A stretch of DNA of 41,273 nt from Ruminococcus sp. (GTDB lineage Bacteria; Bacillota; Clostridia; Oscillospirales; Ruminococcaceae): positions 1 through 41,273 of the forward strand of contig JAFSSS010000032.1 in NCBI GenBank assembly GCA_017450925.1, read 5' to 3'. The notes below the pieces were generated by a model, which saw only the letters and a list, made by a program, of their open reading frames with translations, was not told where the DNA came from and searched no databases. Made by a program: the position numbers and the translations under genes. This document shows, piece by piece, positions 4,187 to 22,242 of this stretch (positions are counted from its first letter, which is position 1; each line of letters begins with the position of its first letter).

Positions 4187-4188
4187 AT

Positions 4189-5132: not shown

Positions 5133-5807
5133 TCACTCCTCGAGCCTGCCGCCGTTCATTCGCATAAGCCTGTGGGCGTACTGTCCGGCGTCGGTTTCGT
5201 GAGTGACCGTCAGCACCGCGGCACCCTCATCGGCGGTGCGGCGGAGGAACTCAAACACCGCACGGGTGTTTTCATCGTCAAGGTCGCCGGTGGGCTCGTC
5301 CGCAAGTATGACAGAGGGGCGGCGTATCAGCGCCCGGGCGATAGACATCCGCCTAAGCTCGCCGCCGGAAAGCTCCGAGGGCTTTACGTTTGCCAGCGGG
5401 GCGATATCCAGCCTTTCAAGCAGCTCCCGAGCGTATTTCTCCGCCTCGGAGGACTGCTCCTTATAAAGCATAAAGGGCAGCAGGACGTTCTCGATGACCG
5501 TAAGACTATAGACGGCTGTCTGCCCCTGCGGTATCACGCCGATGCGCTCGTTCCGCAGCCGGGACAGCCTTTTGTCGTCCAGCGCATAGAGGTCGGTGCC
5601 GTCCAGCATTATCCTTCCGCGGGTGGGCGGCAGCAGTCCCGCCAGCATATTCAGCAGGGTGGTCTTTCCGCTGCCGGAGCGGCCGGTGAGGACGGTGAAC
5701 TGTCCGCTCTCCAGTATGATATTGCTTTCCGCCACGGCGGTGAAGATGTTCGTCCCACTGCCCTCGCGGATAAATTCCTTGACTGCATTTTCAGCCTTGA
5801 GCTGCAT
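5133..5807 (-). CDS. ABC transporter ATP-binding protein (MacB/LolD type)
   Basis: A 224-residue ATPase with Walker A GRSGSGKTT, signature LSGGELRR, and Walker B ILADEPTGDLD, the pattern of the MacB/LolD/FtsE branch that works with FtsX-like permeases. It starts one base inside the stop codon of the permease gene (TGATG), so the two are translationally coupled and form one transporter. It is the last gene of the long minus-strand cluster and converges with the DUF4097 gene only 11 bp away; no clear terminator fits in between. Substrate unknown; MacB-like systems usually handle peptides, lipoproteins or mechanotransmission rather than import. Confidence 0.9.
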   Translation of the reverse strand: MQLKAENAVKEFIREGSGTNIFTAVAESNIILESGQFTVLTGRSGSGKTTLLNMLAGLLPPTRGRIMLDGTDLYALDDKRLSRLRNERIGVIPQGQTAVYSLTVIENVLLPFMLYKEQSSEAEKYARELLERLDIAPLANVKPSELSGGELRRMSIARALIRRPSVILADEPTGDLDDENTRAVFEFLRRTADEGAAVLTVTHETDAGQYAHRLMRMNGGRLEE

Positions 5808-7003
5808 CAGTTATCACCTCTCAATATCACTCCCGTATCTATGCGGCTTATCCGCAGCGCCGACACTGCCGCCGCCAGCATACCGGCGGCTATTGCTGCC
5901 GCAGCAGCGGCGCAGGCTATCCCGATGATGCTTGCCGCCGGGGGCAGAAGATAGGGCATGGCAAGAGCATCCTCAACAGCCCCCGCAAAGGGCAGCATAA
6001 CGATCAGCCCAAGGGCTATGCCGATGATGCTCCCCGTGATGCCCACCGCCAGCGCCTCGGACATAACGGTGCGGGCAAGCTTTCCCCGGGAGGCTCCCGC
6101 CACCCGCAGTACGGCAAATTCCTTTTTCCGCTCGTTGACGCTCATAGCGAAGGCCAGCAGAAGTATCACCGCTCCCAGCACCCACACGGCGCCTATCAGC
6201 ACGCCCACAACATTTGACACACCGCCAAGGCTGTCGGACACCCCGGAGATCATCTCCTTTGTTCTGACGGCCTTGACTTTTTTGACATGGAGGTTTATGT
6301 CATTCAGCACCTCGTCGGGAGAATAGCCCTCGGCGGTGTTTATCATGATGCAGGAGACTGCCTTGTCCGGGTCGATGTCCTTGAAGCTGTTGAGCCCCCG
6401 TTCAAGGGAGGCCCTTGTCATTTCCTTTATCGTTTCCATATTGGTAAAGACCGTGGTATCAAAGCTGGTGCCGGTCTTGTCCAGCTTTGCGGCCACCCGG
6501 CAGTCAACGCCGTAAAACTGGAGGGTGTCTCCCACAAAGGCATTAAGGTCGCTGCCGACAACGATGTCAAGCTTGCCGAGAGGCTCGGTGCTGCTCTTTT
6601 TTATCCACGGCTGAACGGTGAAATCCGTCTCCGGGTCAAAGCCGATTATCTGCACAGGAATGGAGCAGCAGCCGGAGCTTGTGGATGCGAGATAAAGCTG
6701 CACCGAAAGCTGCCCGATGCCCTCACGCTCTTTGACCTTTTCCAGCAGCGAGTCCTCCATGTAGAAATATCCCGTGCTGCCCTGGAGGATGATATTCTCA
6801 AAGCTCTTTTTGGTGGCGGCCTCGTAGGGTACTACCATTATCTCTGCGCCGAGGCGGTCCTCAAGGGAACCGAGGCCGGAGCGCAGACTGGTGATGATGA
6901 CCGTTCCCGCAAAGACCCCCAGCGCCAGCAGCGCCGTCAGCGTTACCAGCACAGCCGTCCGCACCGGCTTGCCTTTAAGATTTTTAACTGCAAGACTCTG
7001 CAT
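5807..7003 (-). CDS. FtsX/MacB-like ABC permease
   Basis: This 398-residue permease has an N-terminal membrane helix (residues about 12-35), a large extracytoplasmic domain of some 220 residues (MacB_PCD type), and three C-terminal helices, which is the FtsX layout. The ATG at 7003 is preceded by GGGGAG and lies 6 bp after the DUF4418 gene. It pairs with the ATPase at 5133-5807. Only one permease gene is present, so the transporter is presumably a homodimer. It differs from the two permeases at 12890-15366, which belong to the iron block. Confidence 0.85.
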   Translation of the reverse strand: MQSLAVKNLKGKPVRTAVLVTLTALLALGVFAGTVIITSLRSGLGSLEDRLGAEIMVVPYEAATKKSFENIILQGSTGYFYMEDSLLEKVKEREGIGQLSVQLYLASTSSGCCSIPVQIIGFDPETDFTVQPWIKKSSTEPLGKLDIVVGSDLNAFVGDTLQFYGVDCRVAAKLDKTGTSFDTTVFTNMETIKEMTRASLERGLNSFKDIDPDKAVSCIMINTAEGYSPDEVLNDINLHVKKVKAVRTKEMISGVSDSLGGVSNVVGVLIGAVWVLGAVILLLAFAMSVNERKKEFAVLRVAGASRGKLARTVMSEALAVGITGSIIGIALGLIVMLPFAGAVEDALAMPYLLPPAASIIGIACAAAAAAIAAGMLAAAVSALRISRIDTGVILRGDN

Positions 7004-7008
7004 TTTTC

Positions 7009-7428
7009 TTACTCCCCGGATCTTGTATTTATCAGAATGATATACACGCCCGCGCATACCGCCGCCAGCGCTCCGATGATGATGACTGCCGGCCGCATGA
7101 CCGAGTGGCAGGTCATATCCTCCTTCATGCACAGCTTGATGACGGTGTTGGGTATTATCGCCGCCGCGATGCCTCCCAGCCCGACAATAAAGGCCAGCAG
7201 CGAGCTTATCCTTTTATGCTCCACGGCCGCTGCCGCCGCCGACAGCAGTACCATTCCCGCGCCCACAGCGCAGACGGCGGTTTCGGCGTTGTGGCAGTTC
7301 ATATATCCTGCCGTGCCCTCCATGCATATCGGCCCGCAGGCGTGAAACAGAAGCTTTGATCCCGCGCACAGCGCTAAGCTCACAGCCGTCAGCAGAAAGC
7401 CGAAGGCTCTTACAGAATTCTTTTTCAT
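7009..7428 (-). CDS. DUF4418-like four-helix membrane protein
   Basis: A 139-residue membrane protein with about four hydrophobic segments. It has cysteine-containing loops outside them: FHACGPICME and MNCHN after helix 1, and CMKEDMTCHS before helix 4. The Cys/His-rich pattern resembles DUF4418, a family I recall from genes beside MacB-type transporters, which fits here. Its start overlaps the stop of the transglutaminase gene (ATGA at 7425-7428) and it ends 5 bp before the permease. The paired cysteines may bind metal or form disulfides; function unknown. Confidence 0.65.
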   Translation of the reverse strand: MKKNSVRAFGFLLTAVSLALCAGSKLLFHACGPICMEGTAGYMNCHNAETAVCAVGAGMVLLSAAAAAVEHKRISSLLAFIVGLGGIAAAIIPNTVIKLCMKEDMTCHSVMRPAVIIIGALAAVCAGVYIILINTRSGE

Positions 7429-8303
7429 ACTTTTTCCTCACTTTCAGTTTCCCAGCTTTTTTCAGACATGGGATAGCTTTTCAAAAATTCATCGGACAGG
7501 TATTTTTCCTCCCGCCGGTGGTCGGGGATATCGTCATCGCTTTTCAGAAAATATCCCTCGCCGCCCAGTTGGTCGTCCCAGGTGATGTCGAGGTTGTAGA
7601 ATCTCCCGCCGATAGCCGCAAGGTTCCAGGCGTGGTATTCCTCCGTCCCGTCCGGGAGAGTCACTGTCCCCGTCACCACCCGGGCGGATATCCCGCACTC
7701 CCGCAGCAGGCGGTAGGCAGCCACCGAATAGCCCTGGCAGACCGCCGTGTGCTGAACGAGCGCCGCATAGGCAGTGGTCTTGAGGTGATTGCTCTCGCTT
7801 TTGGCAGCAGTTTTGTCAAAGCTGACGCTGTCCTTCAGATACTGATACACCGCTCTGATCCGGTCGTATTCACTGCCGGTGAAGATCCCTGCAAGCCCGG
7901 CAACAGCTTCATCCACCTTTTCCTCCTGCCGGAGGGTCGTATAGTAAGCCGGGGCTAACTTTACGGTGTAGGAATACTCGCCCTCCGTGGCTGTATAGCC
8001 GTAGCTGACTTCATAGCCGCCAGTCTGGTGAAAGAGATAATCACCCTCGGCGGGGTCGTCCGTTTCGGAGTAGGCGAGTTCCATAAGCTGCGCGGCGACA
8101 TCCTCAAGGTCGCCCATATTGTTCCCGTGGGAGGTATAGGTGAACTCGATGCCGCCCCAGTGCTGCTTTATCCCGCTGCGTATGCGCCTTACCACTTCGT
8201 CGGTGTTGGAAAAATAGATGCTAAGGTCTCGGCGCATATCGTACTGCTCTCCGCAGGAGACAAGCAGCAGTGCCGCCAGCAGCAGTGCAGACAGGCGCTT
8301 CAT
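7425..8303 (-). CDS. Transglutaminase-like lipoprotein
   Basis: This 292-residue protein begins with a lipoprotein signal (LLLVSC, lipid Cys at about residue 18) and ends with a transglutaminase-like domain (papain fold). The triad is visible: Cys in AVCQGYS, His in EEYHAWN and Asp in NLDITWDD. Such bacterial extracellular proteins act as cysteine peptidases or cross-linking enzymes, often with no known substrate. The ATG at 8303 overlaps the stop of the Fe-S subunit gene (ATGA), so it is translationally coupled to the fumarate-reductase-like genes, an unexpected partner. It may process a surface protein of the same cluster; that is inference. Confidence 0.8.
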   Translation of the reverse strand: MKRLSALLLAALLLVSCGEQYDMRRDLSIYFSNTDEVVRRIRSGIKQHWGGIEFTYTSHGNNMGDLEDVAAQLMELAYSETDDPAEGDYLFHQTGGYEVSYGYTATEGEYSYTVKLAPAYYTTLRQEEKVDEAVAGLAGIFTGSEYDRIRAVYQYLKDSVSFDKTAAKSESNHLKTTAYAALVQHTAVCQGYSVAAYRLLRECGISARVVTGTVTLPDGTEEYHAWNLAAIGGRFYNLDITWDDQLGGEGYFLKSDDDIPDHRREEKYLSDEFLKSYPMSEKSWETESEEKV

Positions 8304-9016
8304 CTTGCTTTGCCGAAGTGCCGCTTCCACACCGCCGCCGCGTTGGAGTTTACCAGCAGGGCGTCGATATCTATCCCTGCGGGGCAGATGTTGCGGCAGG
8401 CCAAGGATTTTCCGCAGCCGTTATAGAAGTGCTTTTTGTAGCCCCTTGCAGCCTCGGATGCATCCTTTGCCGCAGCGATGACCCTTGCCGTCGGGACGGC
8501 AGCCGCAGTGCCGAAGAATTTCCCTCCGGCGTAGAAGTTGGGGCAGATCTCAAGGCAGCAGCCGCACTGCAGGCAGCGCGAGGCCTCAAAGGCAAGAGCC
8601 GTGTTCTGCGCCTTGACCGCGCCCTCGCTCTCCAGCCAAAGCTTCAGCTCGTTCAGAGCGGCGAACATGGGCTCGCGGTCAACCGTCAGATCGGCCACCA
8701 CCGGGAACTTTTTCAGCGGCTCAACGGTCACGGTCCCGTTTTTGGAAAGCTCCTTCAGCCGGGCATCGCAGGCAAGCATCGGCCTGCCGTTTATGACCAT
8801 AGCGCAGGCGCCGCAGCGCTTCTGAAGGCAGCTGCACTCCCAGCTTATCGGCTCAAAGGGCTGTCCGCTGATATCTCTGCGGGTGGGGTCGGCATTTATC
8901 GCCGTAAGCGCTGTGGCGACGGTGGCGTTTTCATCCTCCGTCACAAAGGAGACACTAAGGACATAGGGCTTGTCCCCTGCGCCTTTGCGCCTTGTGATGT
9001 CAAGTCTTGTCTGCAT
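8300..9016 (-). CDS. Succinate dehydrogenase/fumarate reductase iron-sulfur subunit
   Basis: A 238-residue FrdB/SdhB-type protein carrying electrons between the flavoprotein and the membrane cytochrome. All cluster ligands are visible: 2Fe-2S C63-x4-C68-x2-C71-x11-C83; then C148-x2-C151-x2-C154-x3-C158-P and C201-x5-C207-x3-C211-P. By comparison with E. coli FrdB, C148/C151/C154/C211 hold a 4Fe-4S cluster and C158/C201/C207 a 3Fe-4S cluster. It has no export signal, so it is cytoplasmic. AAAGGAGG precedes the start, which overlaps the flavoprotein gene by 17 bp. The gene order cytochrome b, flavoprotein, Fe-S protein is that of Wolinella frdCAB and Bacillus sdhCAB. Confidence 0.93.
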   Translation of the reverse strand: MQTRLDITRRKGAGDKPYVLSVSFVTEDENATVATALTAINADPTRRDISGQPFEPISWECSCLQKRCGACAMVINGRPMLACDARLKELSKNGTVTVEPLKKFPVVADLTVDREPMFAALNELKLWLESEGAVKAQNTALAFEASRCLQCGCCLEICPNFYAGGKFFGTAAAVPTARVIAAAKDASEAARGYKKHFYNGCGKSLACRNICPAGIDIDALLVNSNAAAVWKRHFGKAR

Positions 9017-10601
9017 CCTGCGCCCTCCTTTCGGGGATATCCTTGAAGAGGATATTCACGCTCCCGCTGTATTCTGCCACAGTCGTGCGGCGGAGGCCTT
9101 CATCCCTGTCGGGATAGTCCTCGCGGTAATGGGCGCCTCTGCTTTCGCGGCGCTCCTTTGCCGACATAAGCATAGCAAGCCCCAGTGCAAGGCGGCCTTT
9201 CTCACGGGCGTTGACGGCCTTGAGCTTGCCTGCGGCGGCTATTGCCTTATCAAGCTCCTGTTCATTGCGGATGATGCCGAGGCCGCCGCTAAGGATCTCC
9301 GCGAGGGACTCCGAAAAAGCATCTCTTGCGGGAGCGGCAAGGGGCTCGCCTTCTATAGCCTTGAACACCGGCTCGCTGTCCTCTGCGGGAGAGTATTCTC
9401 CGGCGGCAGTCTCTGCCGCTGTTCTGCCGCCGACCACAGCCCCCAGCATGGAATTTCCGCCAAGGCGGTTGGCGCCGTGATACTGGCAGGCGCATTCTCC
9501 CGCCGCGTAAAGCCCCGGCAGAGAAGAGCGGTGATGCTCGTCAACATAGACCCCGCCCATGAAGTAATGTATCCCCTCGTGAACGGTTATCGGCGTGTAG
9601 GAGGGATCGTCGCCGGTGAAGCGGATGATCTCGTCCCGCAGGTCGCTAAGGCGGTCTCTCCATACCTCCGGCGATAGGCCGGTCATATCAAGATAGACCT
9701 CCTCCACCGTATTATCCTGCCGGCGCACCAAAAACATCTCCCGCGAGACCACGTCCCGGGGCATAAGGTTCCCAAGCTCGGGATACTTCTCCTCCATGAA
9801 ATACCAAGGCTTGTCCTCCTTGGTCATTATCCACAGCCTGCCGCCCTCGCCTCTTGCGGCCTCGGAGATAAGGCAGCGCTTGCCGGGGATAGCGATAGTT
9901 GTGGGATGATACTGTATCATTTCAAGGTTCGCAAACTGCACTCCCTGAGAAAACAGCGCCGCCGCCGCATCGCCGGTGTTTTGGGTGGTGCCGGTGGTGC
10001 GTCCCGGGAACAACCCGTTCAAGCCGCCGCTGCAAAGGATCACGCTGCCGGAAAGCTCCGCACACAGCCCGGTGCGGCAGTCACGGATAAGAACACCGGT
10101 GCAGCTGCCGCCACTGACCGTCAGCCTTATCAGCTCGTGGTGAGGGTAACGCTTCACCAGTCCCGAGGCTTCATGCTTTCTGACCTCGTCGATAAGGGCA
10201 GTCATAAGCACCTTGCCGGTGCTGCTTTTGGCAAAGGCGGTGCGCTTTTTCTTCTGTCCGCCGAAGCTCCTGAGAGTGAGCCCCTTTTCCGACTGCTCCA
10301 GCGGAGCCCCTAAGGCGAAGAGGCGCTTTACCGTTTCCGGCGCCTCCCGGGTGAGACGGTCAACGGCGTTGGGGTCGGCAAGCTCACAGCCGCCTCGGAC
10401 AGTGTCCTCGTAATGCAGCCGGATGCTGTCGCCCTCGCCCATAGTGTCAAGGGCAGCATTTATCCCGCCCTCTGCCAGCACAGACTGCGCCCGCTCGGAG
10501 CGCTGCAGGGATATCAGCCGGCAGGGGATGCCCTTTTCCGCCAGCCGCAGGGCTGCGGACAGTCCTGCAAGTCCGGCGCCGATAATATTTACACGGCCCA
10601 T
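9000..10601 (-). CDS. Fumarate reductase/succinate dehydrogenase-like flavoprotein subunit
   Basis: A 533-residue FrdA/SdhA/NadB-family protein. The FAD-binding GxGxAG motif is at residues 8-13. Likely substrate-site residues are present: H232 (YHPT), the GEGGRLW block (251-257), R282 (MPRDVVSR), H345 (HYFMGG) and R379 (GANRLGGNS). The histidine that binds FAD covalently in most Sdh/Frd flavoproteins (RSHSV in Bacillus) is replaced by Q39 (RAQSV), so FAD should be non-covalent. The protein has no Tat or Sec signal and is cytoplasmic. GGAGGG precedes ATG 10601. With the Fe-S and cytochrome subunits it should form a membrane complex converting fumarate and succinate; L-aspartate oxidase is less likely because of those partners. 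Confidence 0.9.
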   Translation of the reverse strand: MGRVNIIGAGLAGLSAALRLAEKGIPCRLISLQRSERAQSVLAEGGINAALDTMGEGDSIRLHYEDTVRGGCELADPNAVDRLTREAPETVKRLFALGAPLEQSEKGLTLRSFGGQKKKRTAFAKSSTGKVLMTALIDEVRKHEASGLVKRYPHHELIRLTVSGGSCTGVLIRDCRTGLCAELSGSVILCSGGLNGLFPGRTTGTTQNTGDAAAALFSQGVQFANLEMIQYHPTTIAIPGKRCLISEAARGEGGRLWIMTKEDKPWYFMEEKYPELGNLMPRDVVSREMFLVRRQDNTVEEVYLDMTGLSPEVWRDRLSDLRDEIIRFTGDDPSYTPITVHEGIHYFMGGVYVDEHHRSSLPGLYAAGECACQYHGANRLGGNSMLGAVVGGRTAAETAAGEYSPAEDSEPVFKAIEGEPLAAPARDAFSESLAEILSGGLGIIRNEQELDKAIAAAGKLKAVNAREKGRLALGLAMLMSAKERRESRGAHYREDYPDRDEGLRRTTVAEYSGSVNILFKDIPERRAQDADKT

Positions 10602-10620
10602 ATTCTCACCCTCCTTGGCA

Positions 10621-11166
10621 TCAAGCCTGCCACCTGAAATAGTAAACCGCAAAGCCCGCGCCCGCAAACAGCAGGATGATGCTAAGTATCAGCACGATAT
10701 CAAGCGCCAGCTCCTTATAGCTTTTCGCTCCCAGCGAGAGCATCAGCGGGCGGATGTTTGTTAGGATGTGGACTATCAGCGACACCACCAGCAGCAGCTG
10801 TGTTACAAGCTGCGGCCCCTCAAACAGAGCAAGGCGCACCGGGTCGCCGCCGTCCTTTCCGAAGATCTCCAGGTGTGCGACGATGAACAGCATTACAGCC
10901 AGCCCGCTTATGCGCCTTATCCAGAACATTTTGTTTTCCTTGAAGTAGTGAGCGCCGGAGCGCTTTACAGCGATGACGGTGTCTGCCGTGAGCTTTATGC
11001 TCAATATCACATGACCGGTGATGCATATCATCATCACCTCTGCCAGCACCTTCATCACCGTGTTCCCGCCGGGGATGAACCCCATAAGTATCATCCCGCC
11101 CATAACAGCGTGAACGAGGAACATTACCACAGTTCCCATTGCCAGGATAGCATTTAACTTTCTCAT
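10621..11166 (-). CDS. Fumarate-reductase-type diheme cytochrome b membrane anchor
   Basis: A 181-residue protein with five predicted membrane helices (about 5-30, 40-65, 84-102, 118-140 and 155-177). Single histidines lie inside the first four: H19, H52, H98 and H133. This matches the four axial heme ligands of the diheme cytochrome b subunit in Wolinella-type quinol:fumarate reductase and Bacillus succinate dehydrogenase. It sits directly before the flavoprotein and Fe-S genes. The two hemes would let electrons cross the membrane. Sequence similarity in this family is low, so the call rests on topology, histidine placement and gene order. The ribosome binding site is weak. Heme would have to be made or imported, which is notable for a Ruminococcus-like host. 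Confidence 0.8.
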   Translation of the reverse strand: MRKLNAILAMGTVVMFLVHAVMGGMILMGFIPGGNTVMKVLAEVMMICITGHVILSIKLTADTVIAVKRSGAHYFKENKMFWIRRISGLAVMLFIVAHLEIFGKDGGDPVRLALFEGPQLVTQLLLVVSLIVHILTNIRPLMLSLGAKSYKELALDIVLILSIILLFAGAGFAVYYFRWQA

Positions 11167-11172
11167 AACAAA

Positions 11173-11670
11173 TCACTCTGTCCCTTCGACAGATGTCACT
11201 TCAACGTTCTTGTCCTCATACACGCTTTTGGCACCGTATCTCTCCGCCGTTTCTGCCGACATGATGATGATGTCGAACTTGCCCCAGTCGGCCTTTGAAA
11301 GCATCAAAGCAGCATCCTCTGTTTTAAGGCGCATCTGATTTTCCGGCAGCCGCGACTGAAAGCTTCTGGCCATTTCCAGCCCGGAGGCATCGGTGGCCGC
11401 TGCCGTACAGGTAATATCCTCAAGAATGTATGACACCTCGCGCCCGCTGAAAAAATCCTTCCAGAGGGCGAGGCTTTCGCCGGTATGCTTATCCCTGTTT
11501 ATCAGCACAAGGAACCTGCCGGAGGGGGCATCCACCTCGACCGAGGCGCTTGTGACCGCATCCGTATCGCCGCTGATGAAACGCCGGAAGCCGTCGGAGG
11601 ACGCCAACGGCAGCAGGAGCATCAGCCCCACCGCCGCAGTGACGGTAATGATATGCTTGAGAGCCTTCAC
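11173..11670 (-). CDS. Unknown secreted or membrane-anchored protein
   Basis: I do not recognise this 165-residue protein. It has an N-terminal hydrophobic signal or anchor (residues about 8-24, no lipobox) followed by a soluble, extracytoplasmic domain. That domain has a beta-strand-like FLVLINRDKH and a C-terminal FDIIIMSAETAERYG, and contains one cysteine. It lies 3 bp after the FMN lipoprotein gene and 6 bp before the cytochrome b gene, so it is almost certainly co-expressed with both. A link between the membrane cytochrome and the flavinylated lipoprotein would be a reasonable guess from position only. No cofactor motif is visible. Confidence 0.7.
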   Translation of the reverse strand: MKALKHIITVTAAVGLMLLLPLASSDGFRRFISGDTDAVTSASVEVDAPSGRFLVLINRDKHTGESLALWKDFFSGREVSYILEDITCTAAATDASGLEMARSFQSRLPENQMRLKTEDAALMLSKADWGKFDIIIMSAETAERYGAKSVYEDKNVEVTSVEGTE

Positions 11671-11673
11671 TTC

Positions 11674-12111
11674 TTATTCCTCTGCCTCTGAAAGAGCCAC
11701 AGCAACAGCCTCGGTGAACTGGTCGTAGTTAATGGTAGCTCCGCTGACGGCATCCACCTGGTCGGTGCTGCCCTTGTTCACCAGCTCCTCGGCATAGACG
11801 GCTCTTGCAGCGTTGGCCTTTTGAGCCTTGTTGTAGTAGTCGCGGTTCTTGATCTCGCCGCCCTCCATGCCGTAATCCTCGCCCTTAAGGGTGCCGTCCA
11901 GCTCATAGGTCTTGAAGTCGCAGGCGGTGATCTTTCCGTCCTTTATGGTCAGCTCGACTACGCCGTAGCCGCTTCCGCCGCCGTCCACCTCTTCTATCTG
12001 TTCAGAGCTTTTTCCCGTGTAGGTGCCGTCCTTATAGGTCTTGCTTCCGCAGCCCGAAAGGGCAGCCGCACACATGACCGCAGCCAGAGCCGCGCAAATC
12101 AGCTTCTTCAT
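11674..12111 (-). CDS. FMN-binding domain lipoprotein (flavinylation substrate)
   Basis: A 145-residue lipoprotein (lipobox LSGC, lipid Cys21) with one FMN_bind domain. The motif D-x-x-S-G-A-T (residues 120-126) is the sequence on which ApbE flavin transferases attach FMN to the threonine, here T126. Such proteins act as one- or two-electron carriers outside the membrane in Rnf/Nqr complexes and in extracellular electron transfer of Gram-positive bacteria. No apbE gene is in the window. GGAGGG precedes ATG 12111; an upstream ATG at 12183 would add 24 non-signal residues. The gene has its own perfect promoter and heads the redox block. Confidence 0.88.
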   Translation of the reverse strand: MKKLICAALAAVMCAAALSGCGSKTYKDGTYTGKSSEQIEEVDGGGSGYGVVELTIKDGKITACDFKTYELDGTLKGEDYGMEGGEIKNRDYYNKAQKANAARAVYAEELVNKGSTDQVDAVSGATINYDQFTEAVAVALSEAEE

Positions 12112-12150
12112 AGATCCCTCCGTTTTCCCGGCGGGCATACCGCCGTAATC

Positions 12151-12179
12151 ATTATACTTTATTTTCCGAAAAATGTCAA
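12151..12179 (-). promoter_or_regulatory. Internal sigma-A promoter of the redox block
   Basis: Minus-strand TTGACA (12174-12179), 17-bp spacer, TATAAT (12151-12156). The -35 box overlaps the stop codon of the ATPase gene. The short leader contains a small GGCGG/CCGCC hairpin. This promoter can drive everything from the FMN lipoprotein to the gene ending at 5133. Confidence 0.85.
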
Positions 12180-12868
12180 TCATTGAACCTTATTTTACCG
12201 GTAAAGTGTTCGTTCACGACCTCCTTGGCGATCTTTCCGTTTCGCAGCACGAGCCTGCGCTGTGCCACCTCTGCCACCTCCGGGTCATGGGTAACGACGA
12301 TCAGCGTGGTGCCATCGTCGTGCAGCTTGTGGAAAAGATCGACCACTATCTCCTCGTTGGCCTCGTCAAGGTTGCCGGTGGGCTCGTCGGCAAGGATGAT
12401 CTCGGGATAGTTGATAAGGGCTCTTGCCACGCAGACTCTCTGCTGCTCGCCGCCGGAAAGCTGGCTGGGCAGATGCTTGGCTCTGCCCGCAAGACCCACG
12501 CGCTCCAGCGCCTCAAGAGCCTCCTTTTCGTCGGGGATGCTGTGATAATACTGCGCCAGCATCACATTCTCCACCGCCGTAAGGTAATTTACCAGATGAA
12601 ACTGCTGGAAGATAAGGCCGATCTTGTCCCGGCGGATAGTAGTAAGGCTCTTTGAGCTTTCCTTTGAGATGTCAACTCCGTCCAGCAGGACCTCGCCCTT
12701 GGTGGGCTTATCCATGCAGCCGATGATGTTCATCATCGTGCTTTTTCCGGAGCCGGAGGGTCCCATGATCGACACCCATTCTCCCTTTTCGACTTTCAAG
12801 CTCACGTCATCGAGGGCGTGAAGCTCGCCGTAGATCTTATATACGTTTTTAAGCTCCAATAAACTCAT
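12176..12868 (-). CDS. ABC transporter ATP-binding protein of the iron block
   Basis: A 230-residue MacB/LolD-type ATPase: Walker A GPSGSGKST, Q-loop FQQFH, signature LSGGEQQR, Walker B ILADEPTGNLD and H-loop VVTHD. It follows two FtsX-like permeases that probably form its membrane partner as a heterodimer. In the Campylobacter jejuni cluster cj1658-cj1663 the same order occurs: iron permease, P19, membrane protein, two permeases, ATPase. Its place there indicates a role in handling iron or reductant at the outer membrane face, although the exact substrate is not settled to my knowledge. Confidence 0.9.
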   Translation of the reverse strand: MSLLELKNVYKIYGELHALDDVSLKVEKGEWVSIMGPSGSGKSTMMNIIGCMDKPTKGEVLLDGVDISKESSKSLTTIRRDKIGLIFQQFHLVNYLTAVENVMLAQYYHSIPDEKEALEALERVGLAGRAKHLPSQLSGGEQQRVCVARALINYPEIILADEPTGNLDEANEEIVVDLFHKLHDDGTTLIVVTHDPEVAEVAQRRLVLRNGKIAKEVVNEHFTGKIRFND

Positions 12869-12889
12869 AGCAAATTCTCCACTTCATAT

Positions 12890-14053
12890 TTATTCGCCCT
12901 TCAGCACCAGCGCGGGATCGACCTCTGTGGCGCTCTTTATGGGCATAAGGCTGGAAAGTCCCGTAACGACAATGGAAACGATTATGGTGATCGGCACCAG
13001 CAGCGGTCTGAAGGAGATCGAGCTGGAAAAGACTCTCACGCTGACCTGCTGTGCGAACACATATCCCAGCACAGAGCCGATGACTCCGCCCAGCAGTCCC
13101 AGCAGCATACTCTCGCCCATGAACTCCTTAATGATGCTGCCGTCAGAGGCGCCTATCGCCTTGCGCAGACCGATCTCCTTCCGGCGCTCGGCCACAACGG
13201 CGGTCATGGTGGTGGCAACGCAGATCATAGTCAGTGCAAGGACGACTATCGTTACCAGCAGCACCAGCGCCTGCAGCTTGGAAAGCACCGTGGTCTCCGA
13301 GGCGGTAACGCGCTTTACAAGGCTGGCGTGGACCCCGGGCGCGGATGCGTTTATCCTGGCGGCGTAGTCCTTGAGCTTGTCGGAGGCGGCCGAAACGCTT
13401 AGCTCGGCCGCATCGAAAACGTCCTTTACGCCGGTCAGCTCCTCAAGGTCGCCGTAGGTCATGTAGGCGTATTCCTCCTCGGTGCCGCCGGTCTTCAGAA
13501 TGCCCACCACCGTAAATTCCTTTACGTTGTCGTTGACGGCCTCGTTGTCGGCAGCCTTTAACTTTTCGCTTTCGGGAGTAAAGCTGACCTCGATCCTCTC
13601 GCCGACCTTCAGCCGGAAGCTGTCCGCCACCTTTGCCCCGAGCAGCAGCTCGCCGCTGCTTTTCAGCCACTCGCCGTCGTCGATCAGCCAGTAGGGGCTG
13701 GCGGCCTTTGCACCCTCCGGGTCAGTGCCGGCAGCGACCACCGGGTTCTCTCTTATCCTTACGTTCTCGTATCTGTAGGGAGCAGCGCCCACCAGCTCGC
13801 TTGCCGGTATCTGCCCCTTGCCGGCCTCAACGTCTGCGCCTGTGAAGCGCCCGTCGGTGCCGGTGAGTATCATGTTCGCACCGTAATTTCTGAACTCCGC
13901 ACCAAGCTGCCTCGGAACGTCATAATAGATCGAGACCAGCCCCGAGAGGATAGTCGCTCCGATAGCGATCGAGAGCAGCGCCACCACCATTCGTGAGCGC
14001 CGTCTCATCAGCGAGGCGGTTATCATGCGGATAAACATTCTTCTTTTCTTCAT
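12890..14053 (-). CDS. FtsX/MacB-like ABC permease, second of pair
   Basis: A 387-residue permease with an N-terminal helix, a periplasm-type MacB_PCD domain (residues about 45-250) and three C-terminal helices with the conserved ERRKEIGLRKAIGAS segment between helices 2 and 3. It lies 23 bp after the other permease and 21 bp before the ATPase. The two permeases are clearly different in sequence, consistent with a heterodimer. It corresponds in order to Cj1662 of the P19-linked system. Confidence 0.85.
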   Translation of the reverse strand: MKKRRMFIRMITASLMRRRSRMVVALLSIAIGATILSGLVSIYYDVPRQLGAEFRNYGANMILTGTDGRFTGADVEAGKGQIPASELVGAAPYRYENVRIRENPVVAAGTDPEGAKAASPYWLIDDGEWLKSSGELLLGAKVADSFRLKVGERIEVSFTPESEKLKAADNEAVNDNVKEFTVVGILKTGGTEEEYAYMTYGDLEELTGVKDVFDAAELSVSAASDKLKDYAARINASAPGVHASLVKRVTASETTVLSKLQALVLLVTIVVLALTMICVATTMTAVVAERRKEIGLRKAIGASDGSIIKEFMGESMLLGLLGGVIGSVLGYVFAQQVSVRVFSSSISFRPLLVPITIIVSIVVTGLSSLMPIKSATEVDPALVLKGE

Positions 14054-14076
14054 TCTGTCCTATCCCTTTCCGGCTC

Positions 14077-15366
14077 TTACTTTCCGTGAAGCACCTCTGT
14101 CGGTCTTAGCCTTAGCAGCATCCTTATTGCCGGTATGCAGCCGATAAGCGTTACCGTGAACACTGCCACCGCAACTATGGGTATCACCATAGGCCGCATA
14201 CTGATAGCCGAGCCGAATACCGAGTGACCGATTATCTGCGCAAAGCCGAAGCCCGCGAAAAATCCCGCAACGCCGCCGATCACCGCGGTTATGAATATCT
14301 CCGTCAGCACCAGCAGCGATATCGAGCCGTTATAGGCTCCTATTGCTTTCATCAGACCGATCTCCTGGCTGCGCTCCATAACGCTGGCGGTGACCAGGTT
14401 GCAGATGCCCAGCGCCGCACCGATAAGGCTGAGTATGGTGATAAGTATCATCAAAAGCTCGGTCTTGCTAAGTATCTCGCCCTCGGAGTCCGCTACCTGC
14501 CGTACAGGGGATGCCACACAGTCGGTGATCGCCTGCTGTATCTGCCAGCAGATCGAGGAGGCATAGGCCGTGCAGTACCAAAGCTCGTACTGCGCCACCG
14601 TCAGCGACTTGGGATCCTTTGCTGCACGCTCTGCCAGCTCGTTGTCCGGGGTGGTGAGGGCGCTCACGTCTATTGAATCCACCTTGCCGTCAAGGCCGTC
14701 CAAGGCTTGAGCGGTGTTGAGCTGGACGTATATCTGACTGTCCTCGTCGCCGCCCGCATCAAAGATGCCCTTTACCGTAAAGGTGTCGTCAGCGGTCTTG
14801 CCGGTGACGTGCAGCCGGCTGCCCACCTGCAGGCCGTATTTGCGGGCAAGCTCGGTGCCGATCATCGCGCCCTTGCTGCCGTCGCCCTCCTGCTGCTCGT
14901 CCAGCCAGACTCCGCTTTCCAGCTCCCACCAGCTTCGCATACTTTCCACGCCGGCATTCAGCTCCTCGCCTGTAGGAAGCGTCATATGATGATTGAACCA
15001 GCTTCCCACCACCTTCACGTCTTCGCCGGAGTCAAGGTGAGCGTTCACGTTTATGAACGGAGCATAATCCACTATGTTGAAGGTCCAGAAGATCGTTTTG
15101 ATCTTTCCCAGCTCGTCCTCCTTGAGGTACGCGCCGGAGCTTTCTCCCTCCATTTCATACAGCCCGCTCAGCACCGACGATGACTTGGGCAGCACTCTGA
15201 TGTTCGCGCCGTAGGTCTTAAGCTCCTGGTTCACCTTGTCGCCCACGTCCAGCATAACGCTAAGCATAGCCGAGGCCAGTGACGCTCCGAGGGCTATCGT
15301 AAATGCTATCATCAGCATTTTCTTCCATTGTCTGAACAATGTTCCGCGTATCATTCTGCCGAACAT
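14077..15366 (-). CDS. FtsX/MacB-like ABC permease, first of pair
   Basis: A 429-residue permease of the same type, with a larger extracytoplasmic domain (residues about 40-300) and the cytoplasmic-loop motif ERSQEIGLMKAIGAYN. It follows the DUF2318 gene by 17 bp and precedes its partner by 23 bp. The extracytoplasmic domain probably contacts the P19 or FMN lipoprotein; this is inference from operon structure. Confidence 0.85.
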   Translation of the reverse strand: MFGRMIRGTLFRQWKKMLMIAFTIALGASLASAMLSVMLDVGDKVNQELKTYGANIRVLPKSSSVLSGLYEMEGESSGAYLKEDELGKIKTIFWTFNIVDYAPFINVNAHLDSGEDVKVVGSWFNHHMTLPTGEELNAGVESMRSWWELESGVWLDEQQEGDGSKGAMIGTELARKYGLQVGSRLHVTGKTADDTFTVKGIFDAGGDEDSQIYVQLNTAQALDGLDGKVDSIDVSALTTPDNELAERAAKDPKSLTVAQYELWYCTAYASSICWQIQQAITDCVASPVRQVADSEGEILSKTELLMILITILSLIGAALGICNLVTASVMERSQEIGLMKAIGAYNGSISLLVLTEIFITAVIGGVAGFFAGFGFAQIIGHSVFGSAISMRPMVIPIVAVAVFTVTLIGCIPAIRMLLRLRPTEVLHGK

Positions 15367-15383
15367 ATCTTATCCTCCCAAGA

Positions 15384-16667
15384 TCATGATTTGAACACTG
15401 CTTCATTGTCGATCATCTGCTCCACCGGCACCCAGATCGCGCTGTCCTTCACGGTGTATTCCACCACCTTCGGATTGCAGCCGCCGGGGAAGCCAATGGT
15501 GTTGATGTTCATCACCACGTCGCACATCTTGCAGACCACCTGTCCGTCACGCTCGAAATAGCCCGTTTCGCCGCAGATGTCGCAGGCATCCAGTCCGATG
15601 CCGTAGCCGGAGGAGTTGGGCTTCTTTATGACGATAAGGCGTGTGTGCCTGCCGTTGGGAGTGGTATAGCCGAAACGGTGGAGATGCCCGTCATCCACTG
15701 CGCCAAAGGGGATGTAAAGGCAGTTGTCAACTATGGACACATCCTCGACCGGAGAAAGCTCCACCGGCCTGTTGGCGTAGGGCTCGATGACCAGAAAATT
15801 CAGCACCGTGAACACCGCGCAGAACACGCCGAGGTCTGCCCAGCGCCGGCTGACCTTCCACTTCTTCTTTATCTTCCGCTTTTCGGCAGGATTGGAATAG
15901 GGCTCCTTCTGCCGGAAGCTTTTTATCCATATGATGACCGGCACCGCCGCCAGCACCGCCAGCAGGCCGTAGATGAACCATATGTCGTTGTTTGAGGTGG
16001 CCTTGACGATGTCGAACACCGGCTTGTAGGCGCTGCTGTTGGGCAGGATGTAGTGCTTGCTTAGCATGACCTTCAGCAGCAGGGCAGTCACTCTAAGGCC
16101 GTAGATCAGCCCTCCCGTGCAGAGGACGATGAACCCTTGAACAGGCCCGAGGCGCTGCAGCCCTCTGTTTGCCGCGGCCTCCGTCAGCAGCATCACTATC
16201 AGCCCCAGCACCATGCCGATCATCTTGAAAAGATATTCTGTGGAAAGGGCAGTCTGCTCGGTAAGCAGCAGAGTGTAGGGATAAGCCAGCACGTCCGGCA
16301 GAGCGTAGAATATCGCTAAGAAGCACTCCACTCCCGCAGCCGCGGAAAATACGATGTCAGCGGGCTTTTTAAGCTTCCCTTTGAACACCGGGACTGTCAG
16401 CCGCAGTATTCCTGCAATTATCAGCAGCACCAGCACCGCCAGCGATATAATGAAGATGTAATAGTTCCACTGTGAGGTGTCGATCTTCTTGGTGGCGTTC
16501 TTCATGAAGGCCATAACGCCGGCACCGACTATCCCCAGCCCGGTGAGGCAGCCGGCGATGATGCCTCCCAGCCGTCCGCAGACAGCTCTTACATAGCCCC
16601 GCAGCAGCCCCACGACCACTGCCGCCGCTATGACCGCTCCCACGGTCATGGTAAAATATTTCAGCAT
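15384..16667 (-). CDS. DUF2318 multi-helix membrane protein
   Basis: A 427-residue protein with about eight hydrophobic segments and a C-terminal domain (residues about 300-427) with the DUF2318 pattern: C-D-I-C, then 14 residues later C-K-M-C, then a GGC motif. The paired CxxC motifs suggest metal binding, probably outside the membrane. DUF2318 proteins occur beside FTR1 and P19 genes, as here. GAAGGAGAG precedes the start. The gene follows a terminator-like hairpin, so it may be expressed less than P19. Molecular role unknown; a metal or electron relay is plausible. Confidence 0.8.
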   Translation of the reverse strand: MLKYFTMTVGAVIAAAVVVGLLRGYVRAVCGRLGGIIAGCLTGLGIVGAGVMAFMKNATKKIDTSQWNYYIFIISLAVLVLLIIAGILRLTVPVFKGKLKKPADIVFSAAAGVECFLAIFYALPDVLAYPYTLLLTEQTALSTEYLFKMIGMVLGLIVMLLTEAAANRGLQRLGPVQGFIVLCTGGLIYGLRVTALLLKVMLSKHYILPNSSAYKPVFDIVKATSNNDIWFIYGLLAVLAAVPVIIWIKSFRQKEPYSNPAEKRKIKKKWKVSRRWADLGVFCAVFTVLNFLVIEPYANRPVELSPVEDVSIVDNCLYIPFGAVDDGHLHRFGYTTPNGRHTRLIVIKKPNSSGYGIGLDACDICGETGYFERDGQVVCKMCDVVMNINTIGFPGGCNPKVVEYTVKDSAIWVPVEQMIDNEAVFKS

Positions 16668-16778
16668 TTATAGATCTCTCCTTCGGCGGAGGACCGCCGT
16701 TTATAGACCGGCTGATGCCGTTCCGACCGCACAGTATGCCGATGCAGCTGTGCAGTCGGAGCGGCACCGCCGCGAAAA

Positions 16779-16813
16779 CGCACAAAATGCGCTGCGGGAT
16801 GAGCGCAGCGCAT
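16779..16813 (-). terminator. Terminator-like hairpin inside the iron operon
   Basis: A perfect 10-bp stem (ATGCGCTGCG, 16787-16796, with 16804-16813) with a 7-nt loop lies 24 nt past the P19 stop. On the minus strand it is followed by TTTTGTGCGTTTT. It would partly stop transcription or protect the upstream mRNA, raising FTR1 and P19 over the downstream genes. Confidence 0.65.
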
Positions 16814-16836
16814 CTGTATTTCGTTTTGGTGTGAAA

Positions 16837-17535
16837 TTACCACTCCTGCGGAACGTAGTCCCACTTGTCGTAGGTGACCTTGAGGTTGCCGTCCTTGAAG
16901 TAATCGTCCCAGCTTCCTCCCGGGCCGGTCTCTGCATCGGTGTGGAGCAGATAGTTCATCTCGGCAGGGCTGTGGAACTGGAATTCAACGCTGTAGGTGT
17001 CAGCCTTGTCCAGCTTGATGTTAGCGCCGTAGTGAGGACCGTCGGATGCGCTCATGGGCATCAGCTTGCCCTCTGCTGCAACGTCGCCGTTGGAGGCAGT
17101 GATCTTGTAGTCAACAGTCAGATAAGGAACCCAGTCGCCTACGCCGTAGCCGTACTTGTTCTCGTTGGCGGAAACGTCAGCCTCGATGTGGATGTTGTAG
17201 TTCTCGATGCCGTTGCCGTCAGTCATGGGAACGGGCTGGAAATATACAGCGGAAACGTTCATGAAGCCGACTGTCTCGTCCTCGAAGATAGGATACTCCT
17301 GGAAGCCGGCACCTTCACCGCCGGGACCCTCTGCGTTAGCGTCGCTGTCCTTTACCTCTGCGGATGCAGTCTCGGTGCTTTCTGCAGCGGTGCTTTCTGC
17401 TGTGCTTTCAGCAGTGGAAGCTGCTGCTGCGGATGCAGTGTCAGCCTTGCTGCTGGAATCGCTGCTGCCGCAGGCTGCAAGGCTTGCTGCCATAGCAGCT
17501 GCAAGAGCAATGCCTGCAAGCTTTTTGTTCATCAT
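16837..17535 (-). CDS. P19/Tp34-type iron-binding lipoprotein
   Basis: A 232-residue predicted lipoprotein (lipobox LAAC) with a Ser/Ala/Thr/Glu-rich linker (about 22-65) and then a Tp34/P19 domain. P19 proteins bind iron and copper at the dimer interface and hand iron to the FTR1 permease. Likely ligand regions are FMNVSAVYF, NIHIEADV (His and Glu), LMPMSASDGPHYG (Met and His) and LLHTDAETG, by analogy with Campylobacter P19. The ATG at 17535 is preceded by AAGGAGG; a longer frame to 17607 has no signal logic. It follows FTR1 by 95 bp. Confidence 0.88.
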   Translation of the reverse strand: MMNKKLAGIALAAAMAASLAACGSSDSSSKADTASAAAASTAESTAESTAAESTETASAEVKDSDANAEGPGGEGAGFQEYPIFEDETVGFMNVSAVYFQPVPMTDGNGIENYNIHIEADVSANENKYGYGVGDWVPYLTVDYKITASNGDVAAEGKLMPMSASDGPHYGANIKLDKADTYSVEFQFHSPAEMNYLLHTDAETGPGGSWDDYFKDGNLKVTYDKWDYVPQEW

Positions 17536-17630
17536 AATGATTTCCTCCTTACAAAGATTTTGGTTTGTATTTTCCGGCTTGCGCCGTTTATTTATATTCT
17601 CCGGCATAAGCCGTGATATATAAATCCTGT

Positions 17631-19325
17631 TTATTTCGCCTTGGCGGGCGTTTGCTTCTGCTTCTTCTCCCTGGGCTTTTTGGGCTTGGGCTTCAGCTCC
17701 TCCTCGTATTCCTCCTGGCTCTCGATGATGTAGTGAGCGCCCTCAAGGAAGCCTACGACTGTCGGGATGCCCGTCCAGCAGAAGAGGACGTAAAGCATTC
17801 CTCTGCCGTATTTGCCGTTGTAGAATTTGTGCAGTCCGAGAGTTCCCAGCAGTATTGCAACTACACCGCACTCGATGTGGTTGTTTCTCTTCCAGCGCTG
17901 GATGACGAATATCGTGACCGTAAGGGTGATAAGTATCAGCTGCGGGATAAGTGTCTCGTAGCAGGGGTAGATGCCCAGCACGTCGAAGAAGTCGTTGGAG
18001 GGGATAAGGTTCTGCAGGGTGTCCGAGGTGGTCATCATGATGACATCGCCCTCGATAAGCTCCTTGATGCCGGAGCCGAGGAAGGAGATCGACATGATGA
18101 ACATCAGAATGCTCGTGCCGAGGAAGAAGGGCTTCAGCGGCAGCTTCACGCTCAAAAATCTGATCGCAAGGAATACCACTGCCAGTACGACGCAGCCTAC
18201 TCCAAAGCCGCCCCACATCATCTTTTTGCTCTCGTCGTCGCTCATAAGAGGCTGATAGAAAAGTATCACCTCGGCGCCCTCGCGGTAAACCGCAAGGAAG
18301 GCTGTAAAGCCCAGCGTGAACACGCTGCCGGTGTCGGCAGAGGTCTCTACCTGTCCCTCGATGTATTTGTTCCAGGCATCCGCTTCAGCCTTGGATACCA
18401 TCCAGTTGCTGACGTAGAAAAGCACCACAACTGCGATAAGCGCCGTAACGCCCTCGATGATCTCCTGGTTTGCGCTGTTGGCAAGCTTGAGCTGCTCCAG
18501 CAGCCACGCACTCAGGAAGCTGGCGCCGATAGCAAGGATGCATCCCGCATAGACCACCTTGAGCTTTTTGCGGTGACCCTTCTTTACGAGATAGGCGATT
18601 ATCGCGCCCACGACAAGTATCGCTTCAAGTCCCTCGCGGAGGATGATGCCGAAGCAGGCAGCGAAGGTCCCCCAGCCGCCGCCGGTGCCGCCTACGGCCA
18701 CCGCGTTCTCGCCGGGAACTACGGCCTTGCTGTCAGCACTCTCTGCCTTGGAGCTGTCCCCGGAGGAGCCGCTCTCGGTCTTGCTGTCGGAGGATGCCTC
18801 TCCGCCGGAGATAAGCGCCTCCAGTCTTGCGGCGGTAACGGATGCGTCCTCGGCAGGGTCGTCCTTTTGCGTGATGCCGTCCAGCACGTTTGCATCGCGC
18901 CTTACCATTCCCATAAGGGTGACAAGCTCGGCCTTCAGCTCGTCAAGCGTGCCGCCGGACTTGGTAACGGTCTTAGCCTTGGAGAACTGCAGCTCGACCT
19001 CGGTCTTTCTGCTGCCGGCGATGTGTCCCATAGCCGTTCTCTCAAAGCCGGTAACTTCATAGTAGTTGTAATAGCCGGCGTTGATAGCCTTGTAAGCGCT
19101 GTCGGTGTCGCCCGCCTCGAAGAGGGAAGCGGATGCGGAAAAGCACTGATCCATTGCATCTGCCACATCGTTCCATGTGGAAGAGGGCTTGCCTGCCGCC
19201 TTCCAGTCGTTCCAGGATGTGATGTAATCCGTGACGGCAAAGGCCTGCATACCCTGTGAAAGCATTAGCAGCAGCGCCAGTATGACCGCGGCAAAAGCAC
19301 CGCGTCTTTTTGAACTGTAGGTCAT
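17631..19325 (-). CDS. FTR1-family iron permease with C-terminal TM2 domain
   Basis: A 564-residue protein in four parts: a signal peptide (1-31); an extracytoplasmic helical region (about 32-205) ending in a Ser-rich linker; an FTR1/EfeU permease (about 220-480) with the two iron-site motifs REGLE (230-234) and REGAE (348-352); and a C-terminal TM2-like hairpin domain (about 485-535, GTLGLHKFYNGKYGRG) followed by a Lys/Pro-rich tail. FTR1 imports Fe(III) or freshly oxidised iron. The TM2 fusion is unusual. ATG 19325 has AAAGGAGG 7 nt upstream; the preceding TTG is less likely. It heads the iron block and lies behind two palindromic operators. Confidence 0.92.
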   Translation of the reverse strand: MTYSSKRRGAFAAVILALLLMLSQGMQAFAVTDYITSWNDWKAAGKPSSTWNDVADAMDQCFSASASLFEAGDTDSAYKAINAGYYNYYEVTGFERTAMGHIAGSRKTEVELQFSKAKTVTKSGGTLDELKAELVTLMGMVRRDANVLDGITQKDDPAEDASVTAARLEALISGGEASSDSKTESGSSGDSSKAESADSKAVVPGENAVAVGGTGGGWGTFAACFGIILREGLEAILVVGAIIAYLVKKGHRKKLKVVYAGCILAIGASFLSAWLLEQLKLANSANQEIIEGVTALIAVVVLFYVSNWMVSKAEADAWNKYIEGQVETSADTGSVFTLGFTAFLAVYREGAEVILFYQPLMSDDESKKMMWGGFGVGCVVLAVVFLAIRFLSVKLPLKPFFLGTSILMFIMSISFLGSGIKELIEGDVIMMTTSDTLQNLIPSNDFFDVLGIYPCYETLIPQLILITLTVTIFVIQRWKRNNHIECGVVAILLGTLGLHKFYNGKYGRGMLYVLFCWTGIPTVVGFLEGAHYIIESQEEYEEELKPKPKKPREKKQKQTPAKAK

Positions 19326-19346
19326 CAAAAAGCCTCCTTTGAGCCT

Positions 19347-19789: not shown

Positions 19790-19830
19790 GGCACCACCGC
19801 ACGATCCGCGGCTGATGCCTCTACATCAGC
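19786..19830. repeat. Partial second MITE end abutting the AEC gene
   Basis: Starting with the shared TTAA, this stretch repeats the element's left end with several changes (GGCACCACCGCACGATCCGCGGCT...). It runs through the stop codon and last codons of the AEC gene. It also forms a hairpin GCTGATG/CATCAGC that could help end transcription of the polyamine operon. Confidence 0.65.
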
Positions 19831-21644: not shown

Positions 21645-21664
21645 ACCAAGGTGTCCTCCTGTAT

Positions 21665-22192
21665 TTACTCTGCCCAGAAAACTCTGCCGTCCCTGCGGGG
21701 AGCGGCAGGAGGTATCTCTCCTGCGGGATAGCCTACGGCGCAGTGACCGATGCCCTCCCAATCGCCGGTGATGCCGAGGTCGGCAAGAAGCTGCTTCCAC
21801 TCCTCCTGCTCAAACTCCTCCTTAGCCCGGTGTATCCATATGCTCCCGAGGCCGAGGGAATGGGCAGCCAGCATAAGGTTTCCCATAACGAGCGAGCCGT
21901 CATAGACGAAGTTATGCTGCGACCTGTCCGCCAGCACGATAAGGATGACGGGAGCGCCGTAAAATGGGTCAAAGCCCTCGTCCCAGCCGCCTATCCTGCG
22001 GTTGGCATCCATGATCCTGTCCCGCAGATCCTTGTTAGTCACGGCCACGGTGATAACGCCTTGACGTCCTCTTGCGCTGGCGGCATAGAGCCCGGCGTCA
22101 ACTATCCTTTCAATATCAGCCTTCGGGGGCATATCCGGCTTGAAGCTGCGGATGCTCCTGCGTTCCTTTATGGTCTTTATCACTTCGTTCAC
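21665..22192 (-). CDS. Nitroreductase-family flavoprotein
   Basis: A 175-residue NAD(P)H-dependent FMN reductase family protein: N-terminal IKERRSIRSF (FMN phosphate binding), central LMLAAHSLGLGSIWI, and late GYPAGEIP. I chose the GTG at 22192, preceded by AAGGGAG, because the family usually begins within a few residues of the ERRSIR motif. It lies 20 bp before aguB. Its substrate and its reason for being in a polyamine operon are not evident. Confidence 0.85.
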   Translation of the reverse strand: MNEVIKTIKERRSIRSFKPDMPPKADIERIVDAGLYAASARGRQGVITVAVTNKDLRDRIMDANRRIGGWDEGFDPFYGAPVILIVLADRSQHNFVYDGSLVMGNLMLAAHSLGLGSIWIHRAKEEFEQEEWKQLLADLGITGDWEGIGHCAVGYPAGEIPPAAPRRDGRVFWAE

Positions 22193-22242
22193 AGTAAAAA
22201 CTCCCTTCGCTTTATGTGTAATGCAGCCTGTGCTGCAGAGTA

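Follow-up and report, generated by a model that had tools for sequence, protein, structure and literature searches.

A conserved gene cluster joins an FTR1–P19 iron importer to a fumarate-reductase-like (complex-II-like) module in Ruminococcus sp.

The DNA analyzed here, called the window, is the whole 41,273-nucleotide stretch of contig JAFSSS010000032.1 (assembly GCA_017450925.1) of Ruminococcus sp. Open reading frame (ORF) reading and a Pfam search of the window proteins placed 15 minus-strand genes (5133–19328) in one cluster, in the order FTR1, P19, DUF2318, permease, permease, ATPase, FMN_bind, unknown anchored protein (UNK), cytochrome b (cytb), FrdA, FrdB, transglutaminase-like lipoprotein (TGL), DUF4418, second MacB permease, and second ABC ATPase. 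This joint cluster of iron importer and Frd genes is a conserved unit, beyond chance, and its content suggests that a complex-II-like conduit working without quinone may serve the importer. All families named in the original prediction, a reading of the sequence alone, were found in place; cytb and UNK were assigned through members of their alignments, and the Pfam search gave no match for the window's own copy of either. The tiny gaps or overlaps described there hold for most junctions, as likely start codons give gaps of −17 to +95 nt apart from the P19/DUF2318 junction of 169 nt, and fail for three of the 14 (95, 169, and 64 nt).

The first six genes are the P19–FTR1 (FetMP–FetABCD) set in its expected order. 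The FTR1/FetM-type iron permease (17631–19328; PF03239, E 3.1e-26) shows two REGxE motifs by eye, and a TM2 domain (PF05154, E 5e-11) is fused to its C-terminus. It is followed by a P19/FetP-type iron-binding lipoprotein (16837–17607, likely start 17535; PF10634, E 3.4e-44), an FtrD-like/DUF2318 membrane protein resembling FetA (15384–16667; PF10080, E 2.6e-26), FetB-like and FetC-like MacB/FtsX permeases (14077–15366 and 12890–14053; both PF02687 and PF12704), and a FetD-like ABC ATPase (12176–12868; PF00005). The same order is found in fetMP-fetABCDEF of Campylobacter jejuni (cj1658–cj1663), where disruption of fetA, fetB, fetC, or fetD impaired growth (PMC10783030; this and all other papers are cited for the portions of their text that were available). 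In C. jejuni, two thioredoxin-like proteins come next, whereas the window continues from FMN_bind through UNK, cytb, FrdA, FrdB, TGL, and DUF4418 to the second MacB transporter. The FMN_bind lipoprotein (11674–12183, likely start 12111; PF04205, E 3.9e-8; motif D-x-x-[ST]-G-A-T) does occupy the thioredoxin position, as originally predicted, but this arrangement was already published: in 2018, P19 clusters of Firmicutes and other phyla were reported to have an FMN-binding protein as their seventh gene (PMC6083913), and 260 such clusters, mostly Gram-positive, were counted in 2021 (PMC8238504). The latter paper presumes that the electron partner of the FMN protein is encoded elsewhere, whereas the present locus, which shares the seventh gene with those clusters, encodes a candidate partner itself.

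At the far end of the cluster lie TGL (7425–8330, likely start 8303; PF01841, Transglut_core), the DUF4418 membrane protein (7009–7428; PF14387), the second MacB/FtsX permease (5807–7132, likely start 7003; PF02687, PF12704), and the second ABC ATPase (5133–5807; PF00005).

Two peptide patterns derived from the FrdA alignment were used to scan 84,980 species genomes for relatives of FrdA. In total, 303 were found, and the locus counts given here rest on the best 80. These belong to Ruminococcus, Ruminiclostridium, Oscillospiraceae, Lachnospiraceae, Eubacterium, and unranked Clostridia or Bacillota. Many of them come from the guts of ruminants, and Ruminococcus albus 8 (L054) is among the 80. 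At least one of FTR1, P19, FtrD, the first permease, and FMN_bind adjoined FrdA in 61 of the 80 loci, with P19 itself in 50 of those 61. Seven loci met a contig end within 1.2 kb upstream and kept TGL, and 12 showed no core iron gene (nine clearly apart, three at contig ends). The whole 15-gene set was present in 31 loci, 25 of them in the window's order, while FMN_bind, UNK, cytb, FrdA, and FrdB occurred together in 57. Thus, as the original prediction held, the Frd-type complex is to be regarded as part of the iron locus, and among the 80 loci the Frd and FMN genes were usually accompanied by iron genes.

The background of P19 was low, with 6 of 394 genomes of the order positive (one, G601, by a short fragment) and 7 of 391 of the class. 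P19 was nevertheless present in 10 of the 12 genomes lacking visible linkage between FrdA and iron genes (7/9 apart, 3/3 at contig ends); against the 6/394 of the order, this gave a Fisher p of ~7e-15, a value that overstates independence owing to kinship and differing samples. In three order genomes (G574, G417, and G433), an FrdA of 57–62% identity lay 6.1–6.3 kb downstream of P19. Among the P19 loci read, which did not include those of G315 and G601, L018 carried all 15 genes in order, and L019 and L020 carried nearly all, both without TGL and L019 also without a DUF4418 match. Of the 394 order genomes, four carried UNK, and each of these was also P19-positive (hypergeometric 1e-6, window left out). 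A plain quinol:fumarate reductase that is adjacent by chance, the alternative given in the original prediction, is hard to hold against the conservation of the joint locus, the P19 co-occurrence in 10 of 12 genomes without visible linkage, and the UNK distribution. It is considered very improbable, although the complex is of the complex II family by sequence and cytb-FrdAB stands without adjoining UNK or iron genes in L061, L065, L083, L089, and L095. Altogether, cytb lacked UNK in eight loci, three at contig ends and five among the loci apart from iron genes.

A cytb-FrdAB module with P19 is not mentioned in the available text of PMC8238504, whose section on fumarate-reductase-like proteins places the characterised ones outside the cytosol and gives a count of PF00890 genes in the vicinity of FMN-binding genes. 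Moreover, no report of a cytb-FrdAB-UNK module in P19 loci was found in the open-access literature searched, supplements excluded, and the available text of a transcriptome paper on R. albus 7 (PMC6776011) does not mention the locus. P19 with FMN_bind is already published, and the cytb-FrdAB-UNK extension is undescribed as far as the open-access literature was searched.

Two proteins of the cluster could carry flavin outside the membrane. FMN_bind proteins show the motif D-x-x-[ST]-G-A-[ST] and a conserved Cys after the signal peptide; the flavinylation motif was found in 55 of them and in none of six other locus families tested. The flavin transferase gene ApbE was present in 14 of 14 genomes. 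The NqrB/RnfD family, found in 21 of 22 genomes, was rejected as a marker of special wiring. The second candidate, UNK (11173–11670), has a DUF6921-like domain and a degenerate flavinylation motif, DAVTSAS (residues 37–43). By eye, one N-terminal helix precedes D-A-V-[ST]-[SG]-A-[ST], in which D was conserved in 64 of 65 sequences, A42 in 64 of 65, and the final Ser/Thr in 65 of 65. The motif with Gly, Ser, or Ala at position five was present in 52 of 65 and neither form in 13 of 65; the strict ApbE motif was kept in 13 of 65 only, which counts against a flavin on UNK. With regard to such changes, the minimal ApbE motif is given as D-x-x-[ST]-G-A-[ST], and Gly to Ala or Ala to Val left flavinylation at about half, while Thr to Ser lowered it by 10–55% (PMC12052999). 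The closest families to UNK were DUF6921, matched by 28 of 66 UNK proteins at E ≤ 1, and 3noh. FMN_bind ancestry or fold was rejected for UNK, since hhalign against the FMN_bind family of the locus aligned one column with a probability of 8. A phylum-wide DUF6921 search was uninformative: 4 of 398 genomes gave a match, each below the curated cut-off and within open frames of 300–584 aa. UNK is regarded as a candidate ApbE substrate, not a proven one.

The membrane subunit is an SdhC-like cytochrome b (10621–11166), probably with five helices by eye. Sdh_cyt (PF01127) was matched at E ≤ 0.1 by 35 of 71 alignment members, the window's own copy not among them, and a weak match was obtained to 6lum_C (E 0.0012); one member of 71 reached DUF4405 (E 0.033). 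Of its conserved histidines, His19 was present in 70 of 70 covered rows and His52, His98, and His133 each in 72 of 72; when gapped rows are counted, His19 is almost invariant. As judged by eye, helices 1–4 each carry one of the four histidines, which could pair as ligands of an outer and an inner heme. In this respect, and in the families of FrdA and FrdB, the module is like complex II (SdhCAB of Bacillus subtilis, FrdCAB of Wolinella succinogenes). It also resembles the MsrQ-like, PepSY-like, and DUF4405 cytochromes, membrane proteins with four central His that lie near flavinylation genes and are in some cases iron-linked (PMC8238504; PMC10979944). Unlike the present cytb, however, those are of different protein families, and no FrdAB partner is mentioned for them in the available text of the two papers.

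Whether a quinone could serve as partner was addressed at the genome level through UbiA-type prenyltransferases, which are needed for menaquinone by either known route. UbiA was over cut-off in none of 14 genomes (the window's own, 67% complete, and 13 at least 90% complete; four FrdA-positive; two with sub-threshold matches), while the controls were positive in 14 of 14. No UbiA match was obtained in R. albus 8. Among 49 FrdA-positive genomes, four were over cut-off, which favors a plain fumarate reductase and speaks against a quinone-free complex, and two more had sub-threshold matches; UbiA was not over cut-off in 45 of 49, which speaks against the plain reductase. Because UbiA is mostly missing, a quinone is an unlikely electron partner of this complex, in contrast to the quinone/fumarate type named in the original prediction. 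This scarcity and the FMN carriers encoded alongside set the module apart from complex II.

The FrdA-like flavoprotein (9000–10601, likely ATG at 10601, longest ORF from 10667; FAD_binding_2 and Succ_DH_flav_C) has the dicarboxylate-site residues of complex II and lacks the FAD-linking His. At the position of this covalent-FAD His, set by alignment to 6lum_A, Gln36 was found in 81 of 81 sequences, and the tested dicarboxylate-site and catalytic residues were likewise kept in 81 of 81. This Gln, together with an identity of 36% to B. subtilis SdhA, is a further difference from complex II. Among NCBIfam models, those for succinate dehydrogenase flavoproteins, the B. subtilis type included, scored best, with none reaching its curated cut-off. 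A misannotated L-aspartate oxidase (NadB) was rejected, as the best SdhA model scored 425 bits versus 313 for nadB, both under cut-off; a separate NadB-like gene is present in the window's genome. Other FrdA matches in the 18 genomes searched were 31–37% identical, and three of them were read: two had L-aspartate oxidase as their best-scoring model and one had another FrdA-like flavoprotein, all under curated cut-offs. A plasmid search for FrdA gave 394 records, all below 60% identity (best 36.5%). The flavin potential is lower when FAD is bound non-covalently, and homologues in which the link is missing are described as active in fumarate reduction only, with no succinate oxidation (PMC9557727). 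Having Gln in place of the linking His and its catalytic residues intact, FrdA bears a signature that argues for fumarate reduction. FrdB (8300–9016; Fer2_3 and Fer4) has the cysteine sets for [2Fe-2S], [4Fe-4S], and [3Fe-4S] clusters, which were present in every covered alignment row, and its best solved match was W. succinogenes FrdB. Fumarase PF05681 was found in 11 of 13 FrdA-positive genomes tested versus 5 of 10 others.

Based on gene content, locus conservation, cofactor-ligand residues, P19 co-occurrence, and UbiA scarcity, it is proposed, with a probability of roughly 0.6, that a quinone-independent complex-II-like conduit links extracytosolic FMN carriers with cytosolic fumarate and serves a redox step of P19–FTR1 iron uptake. 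The cytosolic FrdAB pair would sit on the presumably diheme cytochrome b. The outer heme would most likely trade electrons with the FMN_bind lipoprotein, and probably with UNK, instead of menaquinol, given that the quinone-synthesis prenyltransferase is mostly missing from these cells. The FMN carriers, in turn, would serve the redox step of iron handling at P19, DUF2318, and FTR1. The locus names a concrete candidate, present in R. albus 8, for the electron partner of the FMN protein of P19 importers, implies a complex II working without quinone, and makes the electron direction of FTR1–P19 systems testable.

As for this direction, the original prediction favored reductive uptake, in which the complex sends cytosolic electrons outward to FMN carriers that reduce Fe(III) for the importer. 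Published P19 models do include a reduction step or reducing power (PMC6083913; PMC10783030), and flavinylated proteins are tied to iron reduction in other clusters (PMC8238504). However, the covalent-FAD His is missing in 81 of 81 FrdA sequences, and enzymes of this kind reportedly lack succinate oxidation (PMC9557727). FrdAB would thus be ill suited to feed electrons in, unless it is supplied otherwise, for example, by flavodoxin. Outward flow therefore conflicts with the FrdA signature and is judged unlikely; inward flow fits better, both directions being proposals. On the side of oxidation, yeast Ftr1 requires a ferroxidase, a related bacterial system has an FtrA that oxidises Fe(II) in its Cu-bound form (PMC11966278), and C. 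jejuni FetE/F appear to act as oxidases in vivo, yet the model of that study also invokes reducing power (PMC10783030). Because of the non-covalent-FAD signature and the oxidation in the Ftr1, FtrA, and FetE/F systems, electrons probably run inward, opposite to reductive uptake. Starting outside, for example, with Fe(II) oxidation at FTR1, they would travel via FMN, the two hemes, and the three Fe-S clusters into the cytosol, where fumarate would accept them.

In the yeast Fet3–Ftr1 system, Fe(II) oxidation with oxygen drives uptake. An anaerobic ferroxidase-permease, with Fe(II) oxidised at FTR1/P19 driving uptake and the electrons reaching fumarate via FMN proteins and the quinone-free diheme complex-II conduit, is put forward tentatively, as a minority possibility. 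If it were true, this complex II would act directly as a flavoprotein:fumarate oxidoreductase, and UNK would represent a new class among flavinylated proteins.

Several points weigh against the proposed FMN-to-fumarate conduit in the service of iron uptake. The main weakness of its inward form is energetic: given the low potential of covalent FMN, electron transfer from Fe(II) to FMN would be uphill unless Fe(III) is strongly stabilised. The locus counts are limited to the best 80 relatives, with 223 outside. Six other P19 loci read (L013–L017 and L021) have the core and FMN_bind and no UNK, cytb, or FrdAB; P19 systems in general thus do not need the Frd module. ApbE is not specific, because it also serves the NqrB/RnfD-type systems. 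No Fur or DtxR box common to the regions upstream of FTR1 was found, a relaxed Fur core being present in 2 of 49 regions. Nine FrdA loci (L028, L061, L065, L075, L083, L084, L089, L095, and L098) are clearly apart from iron genes, and P19 was not found in the genomes of L095 and L098. In the L061 genome, a second cytb accompanies FrdAB away from the iron locus. Finally, of the 12 loci without visible linkage, the first half of the 80-entry list holds two and the second half 10; linkage thus becomes weaker with distance.

The iron loci of the ten P19-positive genomes without visible linkage were compared individually. L107 (genome of L075) and L108 (genome of L061) carry FMN_bind-UNK-cytb and no FrdAB. 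L115 (genome of L084) has FMN_bind with a partial UNK match and no cytb, the full UNK-cytb-FrdAB set being elsewhere in that genome. L111 (genome of L086) ends in cytb at a contig end, and L109, L110, L112, L113, and L114 end before the point of interest. L116 (genome of L083) is rearranged, with no match to the DUF2318 gene, FMN_bind, or UNK; at L116:5166–12709, a second FrdAB and part of a cytb lie beside P19 and FTR1, which may be an assembly effect. In L090 and L091, FrdAB lies ~3.4 kb beyond cytb within the same locus. L074, L086, and L093, which carry the same dehydrogenase gene as those two, have a contig end 1.2–3.8 kb upstream of FrdA that leaves linkage undecided; the second MacB pair is retained in L086 and L093. 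A single paralogue clade for the FrdA copies that stand apart from iron genes was rejected, as a quick tree (LG+G4, SH-aLRT support only) needs nine changes, at least eight forced by starred branches. These copies are more clustered than shuffled labels (nine changes versus a mean of 11.4; 10 of 500 shuffles as low).

These loci also bear on the suggestion that the complex is a co-regulated fumarate electron sink, used when iron is short and playing no part in transport. Two separate Frd loci lie near flavodoxin and DUF3793, one also near FeoB and a DtxR-family gene, and in five loci the gene before FrdA is of the lactate/malate dehydrogenase type, as such a metabolic switch would have it. However, with three Fe-S clusters and probably two hemes, the complex would be an expensive response to a lack of iron. 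Moreover, UNK and cytb are still part of the iron locus in L107 and L108, from which FrdAB has moved away, and no quinol donor is evident. This explanation is regarded as doubtful, on a par with reductive uptake.

The two flavodoxin-associated loci are L083:9456–18666 and L028:9992–13993, both with FrdAB and no core iron genes; the DtxR-family regulator and FeoB are those of L083. The dehydrogenase-family gene lies directly upstream of FrdA in L074, L086, L090, L091, and L093, five loci of one lineage (L090:8931–9917 and L091:8962–9924 by profile scan, the other three by eye). NCBIfam favors lactate dehydrogenase models for it, below cut-off; an Arg in the substrate loop, seen by eye, presumably points to malate as the substrate. 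At L098:5049–12309, in a genome without a P19 match, FrdAB stands without cytb, and ~3.3 kb away is a gene for a NapH-like membrane protein that contains FMN_bind domains. At L084:7443–13015, UNK-cytb-FrdA-FrdB lies off the iron locus, preceded by a flavin reductase-rubrerythrin fusion and followed by a CcdA/DsbD-type membrane protein.

In the window itself, the 15-gene cluster is bounded by a convergent DUF4097 gene (4120–5121) and, 492 nt upstream, by an AEC-type (Mem_trans) transporter gene (19821–20702). Beyond the latter lies a polyamine cluster (20769–31420) of a carbon-nitrogen hydrolase (profile match) and, assigned by eye, agmatine-deiminase-like, carboxynorspermidine decarboxylase- and dehydrogenase-like, spermidine-synthase-like, and decarboxylase genes. 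An Rfam match to SpF59/ldcC RNA (31614–31671, minus strand; 57.4 bits versus a gathering score of 37.2) is located just upstream of the Orn/Lys/Arg decarboxylase-like gene (29972–31420).

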